Positions 4,075 to 27,957 of a DNA stretch of 30,051 nucleotides are shown here, piece after piece. Each line of letters opens with the position of its first letter. The stretch's first letter is position 1. The DNA lies in the IMG/VR virus record IMGVR_UViG_3300049491_000229, positions 1-30,051 of that record, one strand, 5' to 3'. The DNA comes from a virus. The notes under the pieces are model-generated. The model had not been told where the DNA came from and did not search any database. It saw nothing but the letters and a program-made list of their open reading frames with translations. The position numbers and the translations under genes are program-made.

Positions 4075-4175
4075 CCGGCAGATGACCCGGGAGTCATATC
4101 CCACCCGCAACCACGTCCGGCAGATGACCCGGGAAGGTTCGCGACTCTGAAACACGTCCGGCAGATGACCCGGGA
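4075..4175 (+). repeat. Three intergenic direct repeats upstream of the capsid gene
   Basis: The 18-mer CCGGCAGATGACCCGGGA occurs exactly three times in the 164-nt gap between protease and capsid, at 4075-4092, 4117-4134 and 4158-4175. Copies 2 and 3 share 5 further bases on the left (CACGT). Start-to-start spacing is 42 and 41 bp. Each copy contains CCGG-N8-CCGG, so it can also fold as a small hairpin with the same CAGATGAC loop. Function is unknown: operator-like or RNA-level control of capsid expression, or a decaying coding repeat. Confidence 0.9.
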
Positions 4176-19857: not shown

Positions 19858-20139
19858 ATGGCTGTTGGTTTCCAGGTCACCCAGCGCGCGATCAACGACC
19901 GGGTGGGTCAGATGGCGGTCACCGCACGCCTTCTCGCCCGTCAGGTGGACCAGCTACTCGTCAACACCACGGGCAAGTCGAACGCCGAGTTGCAAGCACT
20001 GCCGACGGGCGGGTCACCGGAGGCATGGTCCGCAGCGGATGTCACCGCCCTTGTTGCTGCGGTCACAACCCTTGTCACGATCCGCAACGCCGCCGACAAC
20101 GGGAAAGCGGCGCTCGACAAGATGTCCGGCATCGACTGA
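19858..20139 (+). CDS. Small helical protein of unknown function
   Basis: This 93-residue, mostly helical protein (AVGFQVTQRAINDRVGQMAVTARLLARQVDQLLV) has a very strong ribosome site (AAGGAG). The C-terminal part (AADVTALVAAVTTLVTIRNAADNGKAALDKM) is a second amphipathic helix. Proteins of this kind often accompany tail-appendage genes of actinophages. The stop shares a base with the next start (TGATG), tying it to the LamG gene downstream. Confidence 0.7.
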   Translation: MAVGFQVTQRAINDRVGQMAVTARLLARQVDQLLVNTTGKSNAELQALPTGGSPEAWSAADVTALVAAVTTLVTIRNAADNGKAALDKMSGID

Positions 20140-20846
20140 TGGCGCTACGTCTGGCGTACGCGCTGGACGAATCCAGCGGGGCATTCGCGGAGGCGTCCGG
20201 TGGCACATCGGGCACGCTGACCGCCACCGGGTCGTATGTGGCCGGACACACCGGCAACGGCATCCAGTCATCCACCGGTGACCCAGCGGGCACCGTGGAA
20301 GGGTCACCGCTCCTGACCAGCGGGTCGTGGACAGCGATCACCGTCATGGCGTGGTTCAAGAACGCGGGCAACTCCGGTGACATGTTGGCGGCGATCACCG
20401 GCGCGCCGACCGACGTCTTCGGTTTTAAATTCGCATCGTCAACGGAAATAGCTGTGTGGTGCCGCACCAACACCACCCACTACGAATTCAGCGGGTACAC
20501 ACACGGTGTCGGTGTCGGGTCGTGGCTGCACATCGCGATGACATGGTCGGCCGCGGACACCACACAACGGATGTTCCTCAACGGGTCTCAGGTCGATTCG
20601 GCATCCCATGCGGGGGCAACCCTCGTCGGGAACATGACCAGACTGTCACTCGCTGGTGGTGACACCGGGTGGGGGTCAGGTCCCGGTGCCACGCCGATTG
20701 ATGATTTCCGCCTATTCGATTCCGCTGAGTCCGGCGCGAATATCACCACCTACATGAACACACCCGTCGGTGGCGGGGCACCGGCCGCGCCACTGCTGCC
20801 GATGATCATTCGACGCCCAGCGGTCATCCGCGCCGCCTACTGGTAA
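20139..20846 (+). CDS. LamG/concanavalin-like appendage protein
   Basis: The 235-residue protein is almost wholly one LamG-like jelly-roll domain. It reads LAYALDESSGAFAEASG, then SGSWTAITVMAWFKNAG, VGVGSWLHIAMTWSA, TQRMFLNGSQVDSASHAG and TPIDDFRLFDSAESG, the usual strand order. A Pro-rich C-terminal tail follows, ending RRPAVIRAAYW. Such domains bind sugars and sit on phage tips or fibres. ATG 20139 is chosen by the TGATG overlap. A related domain is inserted in the tail hub at 13726-15924. Confidence 0.82.
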   Translation: MALRLAYALDESSGAFAEASGGTSGTLTATGSYVAGHTGNGIQSSTGDPAGTVEGSPLLTSGSWTAITVMAWFKNAGNSGDMLAAITGAPTDVFGFKFASSTEIAVWCRTNTTHYEFSGYTHGVGVGSWLHIAMTWSAADTTQRMFLNGSQVDSASHAGATLVGNMTRLSLAGGDTGWGSGPGATPIDDFRLFDSAESGANITTYMNTPVGGGAPAAPLLPMIIRRPAVIRAAYW

Positions 20847-20862: not shown

Positions 20863-21339
20863 GTGGCCGCAACGATTTACAGTGTGCAGAACGCCGCACT
20901 ACCAACCACTGCCGCGACCGTGAGGGTCGCAACGGGCACGTCAATCAAAACCCTGCTGCAAGGGACCGCCGCGTCCACGAAACGCATCGAGATATGCGGG
21001 TGGCAGGTCGACATGGACGGCTCACCTGATGGTGTCGTGGAACTCATCCACACAACCACGGTTGCGGGTGGGTCGGCAACCGCTGTCACCCCGACCGTGT
21101 GGTCGGACTCGGCAGGGTCGGCAGCCCTTTCCACGTGGGGATTCTCACCATCCACGGAGGGCACAGTCGTTGCCACGACACGACTCCTGGACCTTCACAA
21201 CGTCAAGGCGAACCAGTCCACGTATTGGTTTCCGTTGGCTGAGCGTCCCCAGGTCCCGGCGTCCGGTGTTGTCCGGGTCCGGGTGTCCATGACCACCGGC
21301 GCGAACGCACTTTGCACCGTGTGGTTCACCGAACCGTAA
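20863..21339 (+). CDS. Beta-rich virion protein of unknown family
   Basis: This GTG-started gene has AAGGGAG upstream and encodes 158 residues rich in Thr, Val and Ala. The strand pattern (KRIEICGWQVDMDGSPDGVVELIHTTTVAGG, FPLAERPQVPASGVVRVRVSMTTGANALCTVWFTEP) suggests a single jelly-roll domain like those of small phage decoration or fibre proteins. No specific family is recognised. It lies in the appendage block after the lysis genes. Confidence 0.7.
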   Translation: MAATIYSVQNAALPTTAATVRVATGTSIKTLLQGTAASTKRIEICGWQVDMDGSPDGVVELIHTTTVAGGSATAVTPTVWSDSAGSAALSTWGFSPSTEGTVVATTRLLDLHNVKANQSTYWFPLAERPQVPASGVVRVRVSMTTGANALCTVWFTEP

Positions 21340-21376: not shown

Positions 21377-22000
21377 ATGCCGATGGTCCCGTACGACAAT
21401 CTCGCAGTGCAACTCTGGTCCGCTGGGATCAACTGGACTTCCGACACGATCAAACTTGCGATCGCGTCGAACTCGTACACCCCCGTCCGCGCCACACACG
21501 ACTTCTTCGATGACATCACGAACGAGATCATCGGCACCGGGTACACCGCGGGCGGCGCGACACTCGGGTCCAAGACCCGCACACTGACCGCAGCCGACTC
21601 GTGGGGCACTTCCAGGGCGAACTCAACCGCATACGTCGCGGGTGACATCATCCGGCCGGCGTCGGCGAACACCTTTGTCTACGAGTGCATCACGGCGGGC
21701 ACGTCCGCAGCGTCCCCGCCCACGTTCACCACCACCGTTGGCGACGACTACACCGACGGAACCGCCGTGTTCTCTTGCCGTGGCAAGGCCGTGCTGCAGC
21801 TCGACTCCGCTGATGTTTCGTGGACCACGTCGACCATCTCGGGTGCACGGAATTTCATCTTGTACAAGTCGACGGGCACCGCGTCAACGTCCCCGCTGAT
21901 CGCGGTGGACACCCTTGCCGCCGATGCGTCCGCGACGTCGGGCACGACCCTCACGTACCAGGTGCAGGCGCTCGGGTACATCGTGCTCTTCCTGAACTGA
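21377..22000 (+). CDS. Appendage protein with inserted carbohydrate-binding-like module
   Basis: The 207-residue protein has an outer domain (VPYDNLAVQLWSAGINWTSDTIKLAIAS, then LQLDSADVSWTTSTISGARNFILYKS and ALGYIVLFLN). It resembles small phage tail proteins that describe a pseudo-measured quantity in beta strands. A module is inserted at about residues 75-136. It has the pattern STAYVAGDIIRP, NTFVYECITAGTS, then TDGTAVFSC, which recurs in many phage fibre proteins and resembles CBM-like folds. CTCGGAGG gives a good ribosome site. Probably part of the receptor-binding apparatus. Confidence 0.75.
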   Translation: MPMVPYDNLAVQLWSAGINWTSDTIKLAIASNSYTPVRATHDFFDDITNEIIGTGYTAGGATLGSKTRTLTAADSWGTSRANSTAYVAGDIIRPASANTFVYECITAGTSAASPPTFTTTVGDDYTDGTAVFSCRGKAVLQLDSADVSWTTSTISGARNFILYKSTGTASTSPLIAVDTLAADASATSGTTLTYQVQALGYIVLFLN

Positions 22001-22039
22001 GACCCCTCCCCTCCGAATTGACCAGCGGGAGGAACTGAC

Positions 22040-23131
22040 ATGGCGATCCGCGGTAGGTCTACTCCTCTGGTCGCCGTCATCAGGTACGCCCCGGCCGGGG
22101 TGGACGTGTCCGTCACCGGCACCGGAACGGCTGTCGCTGTCGCACCCCGTGACGGTGCGGCAGCCACGGACGTAGTCGTCCTTGGTGCTGCCACTGGGGT
22201 AGCTGTTCAGGCGCGCACCGGTGTGGCAGCACCGGACGTGACCGCGGTCGGCACCGCTACGGCGGCGGCCGTCAGCGCGCGAACCGGGATGGTGCTCCCT
22301 GATATCGGGGTCGCTGGTGGCAGTGCTGCGTTAGCAGTCACGGCCCGCACCGGTGTCGCACTGCCCGATATCGGGGTGGCGGGCACCGTGACGGCGGCCG
22401 CTGTCGCGGGTCGTGACGGGCTCGCGGCACCGGAGATCGGTGTTCCCGGTGCCCGCACGGCGCTCGCGGTCGCGGCCCGGACTGGTACTGCGCTCCCCGA
22501 TATTGGTGTCGCCGGTGCCGGGACCGCCTTGGCCGTCCAGGGCAGGGCTGGGGCTGCGGCAGCCGATGTGACCGTCACGGGGTCGGGGACAGCGACCGCT
22601 GTGCAGGGCCGGGACGGCAGCGCCGTGTCCGGTATCAACGTCACCGGCACGGGCACCGCGCTGGCCGTGGAAGGCCGCAGCGGTTCGGGCGTCGCTGACG
22701 CTGGTGTCCCCGGTGACCGCACCGCGCTGGCCATCACCGGTCGGTCTGGTGCCGCGGCAACGGACATCACCGTCACCGGCACCCGCACGGGCGTTGCCGC
22801 ACAGGGCCGCGACGGGTCCGCCACGGTGGATGTCATCGCGGTGGGTAGCCGGACAGCGGTCGCGATCGAGGTCCGATCCGGGTCCGCCACGGTGTCCGCG
22901 ATCATCGTCCTGGGCGACCGGGGCGGTATCGCACTGTCCGCACGCACTGGTGCCGCAGCGACCGACGTCACCGTCACTGGCACCGGCACCAGGGTTGATG
23001 TCAGTGCCCGCACCGGGCTCGCGATGGCGCTCAACGCCTACCCCGACCTGCGCAACCCGCGCGCGAACCTGACCGCCAAGCAGTACACGGCCGCACTGAC
23101 GGCGAAGCAGTGGAGGGCGGACATCACATGA
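22040..23131 (+). CDS. Fibre-like protein of 14 tandem 22-residue repeats
   Basis: This 363-residue protein is mainly a tandem repeat. After 17 leader residues come 14 copies of a 22-residue unit (the 13th has 23) at residues 18-326. The unit pattern is D-hydrophobic-x-V-x-G, then T-A-x-A-V, then R-[TDS]-G. Two short strands per unit divided by glycines suggest a beta-solenoid or spiral rod. The C-terminus carries a second small repeat, LTAKQYTAA then LTAKQWRA, perhaps a cap or binding end. GGGAGGA lies before the ATG. The place among appendage genes suggests a tail fibre or spike shaft. Confidence 0.85.
   Translation: MAIRGRSTPLVAVIRYAPAGVDVSVTGTGTAVAVAPRDGAAATDVVVLGAATGVAVQARTGVAAPDVTAVGTATAAAVSARTGMVLPDIGVAGGSAALAVTARTGVALPDIGVAGTVTAAAVAGRDGLAAPEIGVPGARTALAVAARTGTALPDIGVAGAGTALAVQGRAGAAAADVTVTGSGTATAVQGRDGSAVSGINVTGTGTALAVEGRSGSGVADAGVPGDRTALAITGRSGAAATDITVTGTRTGVAAQGRDGSATVDVIAVGSRTAVAIEVRSGSATVSAIIVLGDRGGIALSARTGAAATDVTVTGTGTRVDVSARTGLAMALNAYPDLRNPRANLTAKQYTAALTAKQWRADIT
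22091..23017 (+). repeat. 14 tandem 66-bp coding repeats
   Basis: The DNA of this gene is a tandem array with a 66-bp unit (one unit of 69 bp), reading as 22-residue protein repeats. Units have diverged (for example the PDIGVAG block occurs in four adjacent or near units), so the array is old but kept in frame. Copy-number change by recombination would lengthen or shorten the protein in steps of one turn. Confidence 0.9.
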
Positions 23132-23457
23132 CGGAGCTGATCGAGATGCGCCGGGGCGACACACTCCCCGACATCACCATCGCGTGCGTCGGGGAGGACG
23201 AGGACGGCACGGCGATCGTGGGCGACCTGTCCGGCGCCACCGAAGTCCTGATCATCGCGTCACAAAACAGGTCGTTGCTGTTCTCGCGGACCACGGCGGC
23301 GCGACCGGTCACCGGCATCCTCACTCACTCATGGGTGGCGGGTGACACAGACGCGCTCGGGATAATCACCCTAGAGGTGCAGGCCACATGGTCACCCGAC
23401 CGGGTGCTGACCTTCCGGGCACCGGTCGGCGTGAACGTACTCGCCGACAACCGATAG
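23128..23457 (+). CDS. BppU-N-like baseplate/appendage protein
   Basis: ATG 23128 overlaps the previous stop (ATGA) and gives 109 residues. The pattern IEMRRGDTLPDITIACVGEDEDGTAIVGDLSGATEVLIIAS, followed by GDTDALGIITLEVQATWSPDRVLTF, matches the small Ig-like domain at the N-terminus of siphoviral upper baseplate proteins (BppU-N type). Here it stands alone. It likely anchors an appendage, possibly the repeat protein encoded just upstream. This is the last gene of the rightward late operon. Confidence 0.75.
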   Translation: MTELIEMRRGDTLPDITIACVGEDEDGTAIVGDLSGATEVLIIASQNRSLLFSRTTAARPVTGILTHSWVAGDTDALGIITLEVQATWSPDRVLTFRAPVGVNVLADNR

Positions 23458-23521
23458 AGGTTTAGGCCCCGCTCTACGCCAAGTAAGAGTGCGCCGCTGT
23501 GCACCGCTGCACGCACTGTCC

Positions 23522-23559
23522 TTGACACGCTTGCGCGGTCGGGGGTGACCCCATCCTAC
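23522..23559 (+). promoter_or_regulatory. Candidate promoter in the late/early intergenic gap
   Basis: A perfect TTGACA lies at 23522-23527. The best -10-like bases are around TCCTAC at 23554-23559. That spacing is too long for the TTGACA but is 17 bp from TTGCGC at 23531-23536. Supporting evidence is therefore weak. If active it would transcribe the structured non-coding stretch that ends at the terminator at 23709. Confidence 0.3.
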
Positions 23560-23561
23560 AC

Positions 23562-23750
23562 ACACAAGGCACCCGTCATGCACGACGGGAGTGGATCGCG
23601 CCGCCCGGGCTACCCCTGCGATCCGCGAACCTGGGCCGGGTGCTCATCCATGGTGGGCACCCGACCCAGGCGTAACAGGATGATCCGGCACCACCGCCTG
23701 ATACGCAGAACGGCCCCAGTCACCTTCGGGTGGCTGGGGCCGTTCTTTGC
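23562..23750 (+). ncRNA. Candidate structured non-coding RNA or long structured 3' end
   Basis: The 407-nt gap 23458-23864 holds no supportable gene. Within it are three stems in a row: GGATCGC with GCGATCC (23593-23599/23618-23624), a 14-nt stem with one mismatch (23630-23643/23657-23670), and the terminator hairpin (23709-23744). This could be a small RNA with its own promoter, or the processed 3' end of the late transcript. The evidence is structure only. Confidence 0.4.
23709..23750 (+). terminator. Strong intrinsic terminator of the late operon
   Basis: A 16-bp stem (23709-23724 with 23729-23744, one G-U pair) is closed by a TTCG tetraloop and followed by TTCTTTG. This is the best terminator in the window. 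It separates the rightward late operon from the leftward small-gene cluster ending at 23865 and may stop transcription from both sides. Confidence 0.9.
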
Positions 23751-23864
23751 GTTTGTGTGAGCGATGCCCGCACTGCGCAGTACGGGCACATCCGGTGATC
23801 AGCCGAATGTCCGCGCTCTCGCGCGGCCCCGCTCACTCACCAGTCTACGACAACCGACCGCGTG

Positions 23865-24113
23865 TCACTCGTCGTCGTCCAGCCACTCATCCAGCGGGCC
23901 GTCCGTGCGAGCGTCGTACACCGACCACCCGATGACCTCACCGATACCCGCGCCGCTTGGCTCAGACCAGAACCCCTCGACGTCCGACCCGTCCGACCCG
24001 GCACGCAACCTGACCCCGTCCGCGCCCGTATGCAAACTGACCCGCGTGACACCCTCCAACGAGGCCAGGTCAAGATGCGGGAACAACCGCGACGGGTTCA
24101 CGTGCTCAGCCAT
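23865..24113 (-). CDS. Small acidic protein of unknown function
   Basis: Starting at the ATG that shares a base with the previous stop (TGATG), this is 82 residues. It is acidic, with strands in the middle (GVTRVSLHTGADGVRLRAGSDG) and an acid-rich end (PLDEWLDDDE). A GTG one codon upstream is possible. It is the last gene of a leftward five-gene cluster. I recognise no family. Small acidic phage proteins often inhibit host enzymes, but nothing in the sequence proves that here. Confidence 0.65.
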   Translation of the reverse strand: MAEHVNPSRLFPHLDLASLEGVTRVSLHTGADGVRLRAGSDGSDVEGFWSEPSGAGIGEVIGWSVYDARTDGPLDEWLDDDE

Positions 24114-24325
24114 CACCCGATCATCCCATCCCGCGCGCCGTCCGCCTCCCGCACCAGCACCAGTAGCCGCTCCACCTGCGCCGGAGTCGGCTCGCCCGTC
24201 GGATGATGCAGCGACCGCTGAGTCGGGAACCGCTGGTCCAAAGCCGCCAGCGCATCATCCACGCGCCGGACCCTCGCGCGCCGATCAGCCCAACGCGACT
24301 GCGCACGGGAAAGTAAGTTGGTCAT
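24113..24325 (-). CDS. Small basic helical protein of unknown function
   Basis: The start at 24325 is chosen because AGGAGG lies 7 nt before it; a longer version from 24376 lacks that. The product has 70 residues, an Arg-rich helix (LLSRAQSRWADRRARVRRVDDALAALDQRF) and a second helix (PAQVERLLVLVREADGARD). It has no recognised domain. A 118-nt gap containing a strong hairpin separates it from the gene upstream. Confidence 0.65.
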   Translation of the reverse strand: MTNLLSRAQSRWADRRARVRRVDDALAALDQRFPTQRSLHHPTGEPTPAQVERLLVLVREADGARDGMIG

Positions 24326-24358
24326 GCCGTTGCCTCCTAGTGGCATCGGTGGCTGGGG

Positions 24359-24386
24359 CCGGGCACGGGGTGGCACCCGTGTCCGG
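24359..24386 (-). promoter_or_regulatory. Strong hairpin in the leftward cluster
   Basis: An 11-bp stem with one wobble pair (24359-24369 with 24376-24386) and a 6-nt loop lies in the only real gap of the leftward cluster, upstream of the gene starting at 24325. There is no U-tract in the leftward direction. It may attenuate read-through or act as a processing or stability element. Confidence 0.4.
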
Positions 24387-24443
24387 TACTCGTAGCGCTA
24401 AAGACTCGCGCGTGGTGCCGGTGATACGTCGCGCAGCATCGGG

Positions 24444-24683
24444 CTACTCCCGGCGCCATCCTGCCGCGGTGAGGGTGGCAGCCAGACGCGCCCAACCGGC
24501 CGGGTCCGTGCCATCACCGAACAGGTCCCGGTCGGCGATGAACACATCCCTCGACAGCTTCGCCAGCGCCGTCCGCGCGTCGCCGTCGCTATCGTCGGGA
24601 TCGTCGCACTCGGGCTCGTCCACGCACACACAATCCTGGAATTTTCCGCAGTCGTCGCAGCGGTCGCTCGGTGAGTAGCTCAT
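24444..24683 (-). CDS. Small acidic protein with a cysteine cluster
   Basis: The 79-residue product has five cysteines near the N-terminus (C9, C12, C18, C20, C26: RCDDCGKFQDCVCVDEPEC), a possible metal-binding knuckle. It then has a very acidic stretch (DDPDDSDGD) and a helical end (GWARLAATLTAAGWRRE). It overlaps the upstream gene by ATGA. A function is not assigned. A Zn-binding adaptor to a host protein is one possibility. Confidence 0.65.
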   Translation of the reverse strand: MSYSPSDRCDDCGKFQDCVCVDEPECDDPDDSDGDARTALAKLSRDVFIADRDLFGDGTDPAGWARLAATLTAAGWRRE

Positions 24684-24943
24684 GACGCCGCCCTACGGAG
24701 ACGCACGACGTCGGCCCACGCCTTCGCGGTCAGGTGATGCGCGTGACCCTCCTTCGCCACCCTGTACCGCTCCTCAGCGGCAGCAAGGTCCAGCGGCGGC
24801 GCTGGGTCGTCCAGGTCGGTGTCGGCGGTTTCCTCTTCCCAGATACCGGCCGACTCCATCAGGTCCGCGAACGTCTGGTACGCGGGGCCGGTGAGTTCCT
24901 TCCCGATCAGGTCGGCAGCGGCGGCGAGCGGGTGGCGGGTCAC
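24680..24943 (-). CDS. Small helical protein of unknown function
   Basis: GTG at 24943 overlaps the preceding stop (GTGA) and gives 87 residues; a GTG 5 codons earlier is possible. It is helical with an acidic centre (WEEETADTDLDDPAPPLDLAAAEERYRVAKEGHAHHLTAKAWADVVRLRR). It is translationally linked on both sides. No family is recognised. Confidence 0.65.
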   Translation of the reverse strand: MTRHPLAAAADLIGKELTGPAYQTFADLMESAGIWEEETADTDLDDPAPPLDLAAAEERYRVAKEGHAHHLTAKAWADVVRLRRAAS

Positions 24944-25122
24944 AGTTCCGCTCCGCACCGGTCCAGCTCCTCCACGATCAGCTCGGCGAGGCGAACCCCC
25001 CTGTCAAGGCTGCTGGACATCAGGATGTCCAGGACCTTGGTCACGCGCGGGTCGGTGGTGCTGGTGCTGCGGCGACCGGCCGAGTAGATGTCGGCGGCGG
25101 CGGCGGTGTGTGTGTTGGGCAT
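24940..25122 (-). CDS. First gene of the leftward cluster, small unknown protein
   Basis: The 60-residue product reads MPNTHTAAAADIYSAGR, then a helical region (TDPRVTKVLDILMSSSLDRGVRLAELIVEELDRC). There is no Shine-Dalgarno motif; instead a -10-like ATACTT ends 5 nt before the ATG, fitting a leaderless mRNA. It is the head of the operon that runs to 23865. No family is recognised. Confidence 0.65.
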   Translation of the reverse strand: MPNTHTAAAADIYSAGRRSTSTTDPRVTKVLDILMSSSLDRGVRLAELIVEELDRCGAEL

Positions 25123-26485: not shown

Positions 26486-26486
26486 G

Positions 26487-26557
26487 AGCCCCCTACCAGG
26501 ATTGAACTGGCGCATCCGACTTACGAGGTCGGCGCTCTACCACTGAGCTAAGGGGGC
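26487..26557 (-). tRNA. tRNA-Thr (anticodon CGT)
   Basis: Read leftward this is a full 71-nt cloverleaf: a 7-bp acceptor stem (GCCCCCT with AGGGGGC), D-stem GCTC/GAGC, anticodon stem CCGAC/GTCGG around loop CTCGTAA (anticodon CGT), a 4-nt variable loop, and T-stem GCCAG/CTGGT around TTCAATC. The discriminator is T, and CCA is not encoded. All stems pair, so it is likely functional. It lies 209 nt upstream of the integrase start. It may be a phage translation aid or part of the attachment region. Confidence 0.93.
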
Positions 26558-26704: not shown

Positions 26705-26766
26705 CAGCGAGTCCCATTGAATTGCAATGAAATTGCATGACGATTGCTGACGCTCAGGGGGTCTCA

Positions 26767-27957
26767 ATGACGGCAACGAAACGCAGGCAGTACGGCACCG
26801 GCAGCATCAGCCAACGAGCCAAAGACGGCCGATGGGTCGGCGCGATCATGGCCGGGTGGACCAGCAAGGGCACCCGCAGACGCATCACCGTCACAGCCAA
26901 GACCGAAGCCGAATGCAAACGGAAGCTCGAAGCCAAACGCGCCGAGATCATCCGCGACGGCATCCCGTCCGAAGGCATGGCCAGCAAGGTCACCGTCAAA
27001 GCCTGGGCCGAACAGTGGCTCGAGCACACACAGACAGAGATCCGCCCCAAGACCTGGGCCACCAACCGGAGCTGCGTCAACCTCTGGATCATCCCCATAG
27101 TCGGCAACAGGCGCGTAGACCAACTCACCCCCGACGCCTACCGCGCCATACGCGAGGCAGTCAGGTCCGCCGACAACGCACACAACACCGCGCTCCGGGC
27201 AATGGTGATCTTCAAGCAACTCCTACACGCAGCCCAACAGGAAGGGCACCACGTACCGCCCCGGGTCCTGGCCTACAAGCTCGGGAAACCGGAACGATCC
27301 ACCCGCGCGAACATGTCCCTCGAGCACGCCCGCGCGATCCTGCTCACCGCCTCCGGGCTGCCCGACGCATCCCGCTGGTTCGCCGCGTTCCACCTCGGCA
27401 TCCGGCAGGGTGAAACCCTCGGGCTCACCTGGGACCGCGTCAACCTCAAGGCCGGGACCGCTGACATCTCCTGGCAGTTGCAGGCGCTCCCATACAAGGA
27501 AGGGCGCTCCGGTCTCCTGCGCGTCCCCGATGGATACGAGTTCCGCCGCCTCGAAGGTTCCCTATGCCTCGTCCGACCAAAGAGCGTGGACCGCATCATC
27601 CCCCTCAGCCGACCCCTGGCGGACAAGCTCACCGCGTGGAAAGCCGTAGCACCAACCGGCCCGCACGACCTCGTGTGGACCCGCTCAGGGCGGCCCATCG
27701 CAGCCAACGACGACCGCACAGCCTGGCACCACCTACAGGAACTCGCCGGTGTTCAACACCCGGACGGACGGCACTACTACCTCCACGAAACCAGGCACAC
27801 CGCCGCGACCGTCATGCGCGCGGCCGGCGTCCCCATTGAAGACGTGCAAGCCATCCTCGGACACGCAGCCATCCTCACCACCCTCGGATACGCCCACGAG
27901 AATCAGGAGATGCGGCAATCAGGCATTGACCGGCTAGCCGCTGCACTGGAAGGCTGA
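26767..27957 (+). CDS. int: Tyrosine recombinase / integrase
   Basis: The enzyme integrates and excises the phage at att sites. ATG 26767 (CAGGGGG just before it) gives 396 residues; ATG 26737 lacks a ribosome site. The N-terminal part (GTGSISQRAKDGRWVGAIMAGW) is an arm-binding AP2-like domain. A core-binding SAM-like helical domain follows (VKAWAEQWLEHTQTEIRPKTW). Catalytic residues are R213 (GIRQGE), H340 and R343 (HETRH), H366 (LGHA) and the nucleophile Y375 (LGYAH). It looks intact and should be active. A perfect hairpin closes the gene. Confidence 0.95.
   Translation: MTATKRRQYGTGSISQRAKDGRWVGAIMAGWTSKGTRRRITVTAKTEAECKRKLEAKRAEIIRDGIPSEGMASKVTVKAWAEQWLEHTQTEIRPKTWATNRSCVNLWIIPIVGNRRVDQLTPDAYRAIREAVRSADNAHNTALRAMVIFKQLLHAAQQEGHHVPPRVLAYKLGKPERSTRANMSLEHARAILLTASGLPDASRWFAAFHLGIRQGETLGLTWDRVNLKAGTADISWQLQALPYKEGRSGLLRVPDGYEFRRLEGSLCLVRPKSVDRIIPLSRPLADKLTAWKAVAPTGPHDLVWTRSGRPIAANDDRTAWHHLQELAGVQHPDGRHYYLHETRHTAATVMRAAGVPIEDVQAILGHAAILTTLGYAHENQEMRQSGIDRLAAALEG

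Follow-up and report, generated by a model that had tools for sequence, protein, structure and literature searches.

A gene of fourteen 22-residue repeats beside a phrog_644 partner: a candidate attachment-fibre shaft in a phage genome record

The locus and its genes

The stretch of DNA analysed here, called the window, is a whole virus record of 30,051 bases with the gene order of a siphophage on the plus strand. The structural genes run from terminase, portal, protease and major head protein through the head-tail connectors to the tape measure and two large tail genes. Next come an M15+LysM endolysin, a LamG protein and a three-gene cassette (21377-23457); a gap separates the cassette from an integrase, close to which lies a tRNA-Thr. 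The gene of interest is the middle member of the cassette, lying between a phrog_644 protein and a small protein whose gene is coupled to it. The features are as follows.

20133..20846, plus strand: LamG-domain protein belonging to this cluster, perhaps the part that binds the receptor (PF13385, E=1.6e-14)
20863..21339, plus strand: small cluster protein, no match found
21377..22000, plus strand: phrog_644 partner protein, candidate fibre base (phrog_644, E=6.7e-27)
22040..23131, plus strand: repeat protein of 363 aa, candidate fibre shaft, with 14 units of 22 residues and a predicted beta-solenoid
22091..23017, plus strand: the fourteen 22-residue units (residues 18-326), with units 12 and 13 separated by a single spacer residue
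23018..23128, plus strand: C-terminal tail outside the repeats, carrying the LTAKQ doublet (residues 327-363; model pLDDT about 30-50)
23128..23457, plus strand: small gene with an ATGA overlap with the repeat gene, candidate adaptor or beta-sandwich by position only
26486..26557, minus strand: tRNA-Thr(CGT), 180 bases upstream of the tyrosine integrase gene
26737..27957, plus strand: tyrosine integrase gene

The open reading frame at 22040-23131 is real and well supported, with an ATG start, a strong Shine-Dalgarno sequence (GGGAGG) upstream, and a stop codon that overlaps the ATG of the next gene as ATGA. Two statements about its neighbours in a preliminary description of this DNA need correction. 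LamG genes were mentioned in the plural, and HMM searches of the proteins scanned found one (Laminin_G_3) rather than several. The small gene at 23128-23457 was called BppU-N-like, a label that did not survive, as its product matched no Pfam family even at E<=10. This product also had no PHROG match and no relatives in phage genomes or viral contigs, and aligning it with the small genes that come after the repeat genes of two comparison loci (L013 and L003) revealed no convincing homology. It may play the part of a fibre adaptor.

Several other features of the record were observed in passing. The tRNA-Thr(CGT) by the integrase is a possible attachment site, and no second copy of the tRNA of at least 15 bases occurs within the record. 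The 1.6 kb past the cassette (23458-25100) is without a convincing plus-strand gene; it holds a 304-aa plus-strand frame with atypical GC content by codon position (0.62/0.71/0.71), and its minus-strand frames contain short gene-like pieces. A 41-bp tandem repeat of 2.4 copies (4075-4175) lies just ahead of the gene for the major head protein.

The fourteen units

A chain search recovered exactly fourteen 22-residue units, with a single residue inserted between units 12 and 13, and the C-terminal LTAKQ doublet reported earlier was likewise found in the protein (LTAKQYTAALTAKQWRADIT). At a lag of 22 residues 44% of positions are identical, whereas none of 300 shuffles exceeded 19%. Pairs of units share 46.9% of their residues on average, a figure that falls to 13.8% (maximum 16.4%) when each unit is shuffled. 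The unit follows the pattern A-x-x-x-D-[VI]-x-V-x-G-x-x-T-A-[VL]-A-V-x-x-R-x-G, in which G10, R20 and G22 are invariant (14/14), A16 is present in 13/14 units, and V8 and D5 in about 11-12/14. Gly-X-Y triplets, as in collagen-like phage fibres, are absent from the repeat protein, whose period is 22.

Tandem Repeats Finder detected no 66-nt array at the gene, and third codon positions are 37% identical between units, compared with 62-66% for first and second positions. Where units share a residue, the codons are identical at a frequency of 0.39, with 0.37 expected from independent draws. Agreement between codons no greater than chance argues that the units are old and owe their continued likeness to selection on the protein; judged from these codon comparisons, the array is not a recent DNA duplication.

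Predicted fold

In the AlphaFold2 model of the single sequence every unit of the array has two strands (mean pLDDT 67.9, pTM 0.65), and DSSP assignments on this model are consistent with the two short strand patterns per unit described earlier. Compared with right-handed beta-helices by VIA-align, the model gave Z scores of up to 20.6, with many phage tailspikes among the matches. The highest score was with the Pam1 tailspike (Z 20.6), and the tailspikes of P22, Sf6, 9NA and Det7 (Z 17-18) resemble the model in predicted fold and in the 22-residue rung. None of these right-handed beta-helix tailspikes matches the repeat protein in sequence. The coils of tailspikes are irregular, with bulky cores and catalytic clefts, whereas the modelled coils of the repeat protein are near-identical and made of small residues. 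Foldseek searches with the model returned weak matches (best E 0.04 and 0.11).

The repeat array is likely to form a beta-solenoid, as modelled. The earlier proposal of such a fold agrees with a monomer prediction of modest confidence, which is to be discounted because about 41% of perfect repeats with random sequence come out of AlphaFold2 as beta-solenoids (PMC11795689) and because the prediction for a relative from locus L013 had a pLDDT of 40 and no solenoid.

The same observations leave some room for a fibre shaft with another beta-rich architecture, such as a triple beta-spiral or an interwoven trimer, in place of a monomeric beta-solenoid. Trimers are common among phage fibres, and a trimeric assembly would accommodate tandem units that have turn glycines, a pair of short strands and small residues. 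A monomer prediction cannot reveal an obligate trimer, and the L013 relative did not fold alone. The window model is nonetheless regular along all 14 units and aligns structurally with beta-helix tailspikes at Z 17-21. Furthermore, the rung of right-handed beta-helices is 22 residues long, the same as the unit found here, while the adenovirus spiral has a 15-residue unit and the T4 gp5 needle an octapeptide. We therefore regard a trimeric shaft of this kind as a serious contender that is unlikely to be correct.

The array might also be an intrinsically disordered, low-complexity linker that has a period and no defined fold. Its richness in Ala, Gly, Thr and Val would fit such a linker, as would the AlphaFold2 bias on repeats and the low pLDDT of the L013 relative. 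The strict patterning of the units, with V/I, G, R and D at fixed places and beta-branched residues in alternation, points the other way, as does selection on residues whose codons are saturated; a disordered linker appears quite improbable.

Direct searches and the phrog_644 partner

Searches with the repeat protein itself were unproductive. It had no match in phage genomes (tblastn) or viral contigs and nothing meaningful among PDB sequences, and Pfam and PHROGs returned only sub-threshold dUTPase and NosD hits, the beta-helix family NosD scoring under its cut-off of 23.6 (E=0.04, 13.8 bits). No paper describing the 22-residue repeat was found in the literature.

The phrog_644 partner was more informative. 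The phrog_644 profile matches the PDB chain 9d93_Ra, "Tail wing arm, gp31", which we take to be from mycobacteriophage Bxb1 (E=1.2e-4). The match is weak but significant, covers only the core fold of the partner, and concerns the partner rather than the repeat protein. The window's phrog_644 protein carries an inserted module at residues ~80-150 that seven other aligned relatives are without, and that scores below threshold for CBM_5_12 (E=0.43). The phrog_644 proteins of loci L013 and L014 are the closest to that of the window (48-49%), and their full-length matches suggest that they share the module. When the phrog_644 protein was sought in genome contigs, 84 pattern matches were obtained and none was confirmed.

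Repeat proteins at phrog_644 loci elsewhere

Direct searches with the repeat having failed, comparison loci (numbered with the prefix L) were collected through homologues of phrog_644. Among 485 distinct ORFs at these loci, 35 are significantly periodic, and 31 of the 35 have a lag of 20-24 residues or its double, a count that takes in a few repeats of other kinds, for example collagen-like ones. At the loci where the anchor pattern was found, genes with 20-24-residue repeats make up 19 of 72 ORFs at positions +1 to +3 after the phrog_644 gene, compared with 3/141 upstream and 1/53 at +4 to +8. The window's repeat protein has both traits, tandem units of this length and a gene within three genes downstream of phrog_644. 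Many unrelated phages have repeat proteins of this length at their phrog_644 loci, among them metagenomic phages, phages of Gordonia, Rhodococcus, Tsukamurella and Mycobacterium, and Caulobacter phage phiCbK. Both genes are found in Gordonia phages Gibbles, Kampe, Vasanti, GodonK, Sixama, Guey18 and GMA1 and in Rhodococcus phage REQ3, and also, with the repeat gene upstream, in Tsukamurella phage TPA4 and Mycobacterium phages NoShow and Onyinye.

Several of these proteins are annotated as minor tail proteins, namely Gordonia Vasanti gp28, GodonK gp96, Gibbles gp37 and Kampe gp39 and Mycobacterium NoShow gp22 and Onyinye gp43. Like the window protein, they are encoded close to a phrog_644 gene and contain 22- or 24-residue units with two strand-like segments. 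Their unit is mostly of a PATATAxAPxG...V type, whereas the window unit contains an RxGxxxxD loop and is without the conserved AP, and tblastn found no sequence match between the two. Fibre-tail adaptor genes lie near several of the repeat genes: PF23148 in Vasanti (gp27) and GodonK (gp94), and LtfC (PF23926) in Sixama (gp103) and Guey18 (gp62).

Searches of phage genomes with the repeats of L002, L004 and L045 found none, and that with the L006 repeat recovered Gordonia minor tail proteins. The latter search also returned the tape measure of Microbacterium phage Cece (L047), which has a strong 22-residue hydrophobic period (61/100 matches); it was rejected as different in kind, the period lying in a helix-like hydrophobic stretch. 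The lag tables also include other kinds of fibre repeat that are not claimed as relatives, namely L025 and L029 (lag 40, LPKAGGAMTG units) and a collagen-like GPTGATG protein at L013.

In phage phiCbK the gene directly downstream of the phrog_644 homologue is gp76 (2,799 aa; L062, 37549-45948), and the C-terminal ~900 residues of its product consist largely of SGxIGTIxVTPPxA-type units of ~22-24 residues, with lags of 22-24 and 45. This protein was proposed to be the flagellum-binding head filament, and the same authors did not detect it in virions (PMC3556154). It resembles the window's repeat protein in following a phrog_644 gene and in repeat length, a likeness of length and position and not established homology. 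It differs in being much longer, in having a glycine-rich front half with a lectin domain, and in lying among head-proximal genes.

The example of gp76 raises the question of whether the window protein might decorate the capsid or form a filament attached to the head, and not be part of a tail fibre. In satellite phage MiniFlayer (L059, 5186-9997) the phrog_644 gene comes after that for the major capsid protein, and the window's own phrog_644 protein also matches a "head decoration" PHROG. The latter match covers residues 66-129, mostly the inserted module and outside the phrog_644 core. In the window and in the actinophages, moreover, the cassette lies past the tail genes, adjoining lysis genes or integrase, and its neighbours are tail-fibre adaptors; a location on the head is accordingly improbable.

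The position near the end of the structural block and ahead of the integrase region, a possible site for lysogenic conversion, could instead suggest an accessory, non-virion protein, such as a surface or host-modifying product of the lysogen. We consider this very improbable in view of the ATGA coupling to the neighbouring gene, the recurrent pairing with phrog_644 and the relatives annotated as minor tail proteins.

Relationships among the units

Alignment of whole repeat arrays with MAFFT was out of register and was set aside. Other arrays were instead scored with chained unit profiles, and the controls were plain shuffles and a stricter column permutation of units, which preserves period and composition. 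Under column permutation, the L042 profile recognised eleven other arrays, Gordonia, Mycobacterium and Rhodococcus arrays among them, each at the lowest p that the test could give (1/151). The window unit matched that of L014 (column-permuted p 0.02, reverse 0.007), and the window profile matched Vasanti with z=7.8 by shuffles and p=0.02 by column permutation; about 144 comparisons were made, so that a single p of 0.02 is weak. No direct match at p<0.05 was seen between the window unit and L042, NoShow or Onyinye. A chain of matches leads from L014 to L013, from L013 to L002 and from L002 to L042, and the R-x-G-x4-D spacing is common to the window, L014 and L013 units.

On these sequence comparisons, the window repeat probably belongs, as a divergent member, to a widespread group of phage fibre repeats that has no name. 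The earlier statement that no named family has this unit holds for Pfam, PHROGs and a sequence-based search of the PDB, but the repeat is not a singleton, as similar units are widespread in phages.

A candidate fibre shaft and its wider meaning

The preliminary description had proposed an appendage or fibre gene, and this is supported by gene position and by minor-tail-protein relatives with adjoining fibre-adaptor genes. An assignment to a virion appendage is supported by the location, the recurrent phrog_644 partner, the 9d93 match, the minor-tail relatives and the fibre-tail adaptor neighbours. With a probability of roughly 0.6, the product of the repeat gene is the shaft of an attachment fibre or arm on the virion. 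In that case every 22-residue unit would make a single turn of a beta-solenoid; its two strands would fall near DIxVxG and TALAVxxR, and the Arg and Asp of the RxGxxxxD loop would stack along one edge. The phrog_644 protein would be the base that anchors the rod to the virion, and the distal, host-facing part would be the C-terminus of the repeat protein or else the LamG protein or small partner. The number of units would set the length of the shaft, 14 x ~0.48 nm or about 6.7 nm if the array is a solenoid.

A broader and more tentative proposal is that the solenoid fibre repeats form a single family that diverges fast and, set on a phrog_644 base, makes attachment filaments in phages infecting both Actinomycetota and Caulobacter-like hosts, ranging from short tail fibres such as the one proposed here to the 200 nm head filament of phiCbK. 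Unit number would serve as a length ruler while unit sequence was free to change. We consider this possible but doubtful. Fibres set the host range of phages yet evolve too fast for sequence searches, and no Pfam or PHROGs model was found for the window's repeat; phrog_644 is conserved and searchable and marks fibre-encoding sites, and thereby offers a practical way to find such fibres. The main interest lies in the pattern around phrog_644 more than in the window's own gene. For phiCbK, the pairing with phrog_644 adds an argument for gp76 as a filament protein, a matter left open by its discoverers (PMC3556154). Finally, gp8 of MiniFlayer contains a few ~22-residue PMTGSG units, with a periodicity that is not significant, and this satellite may carry a fibre of its own.
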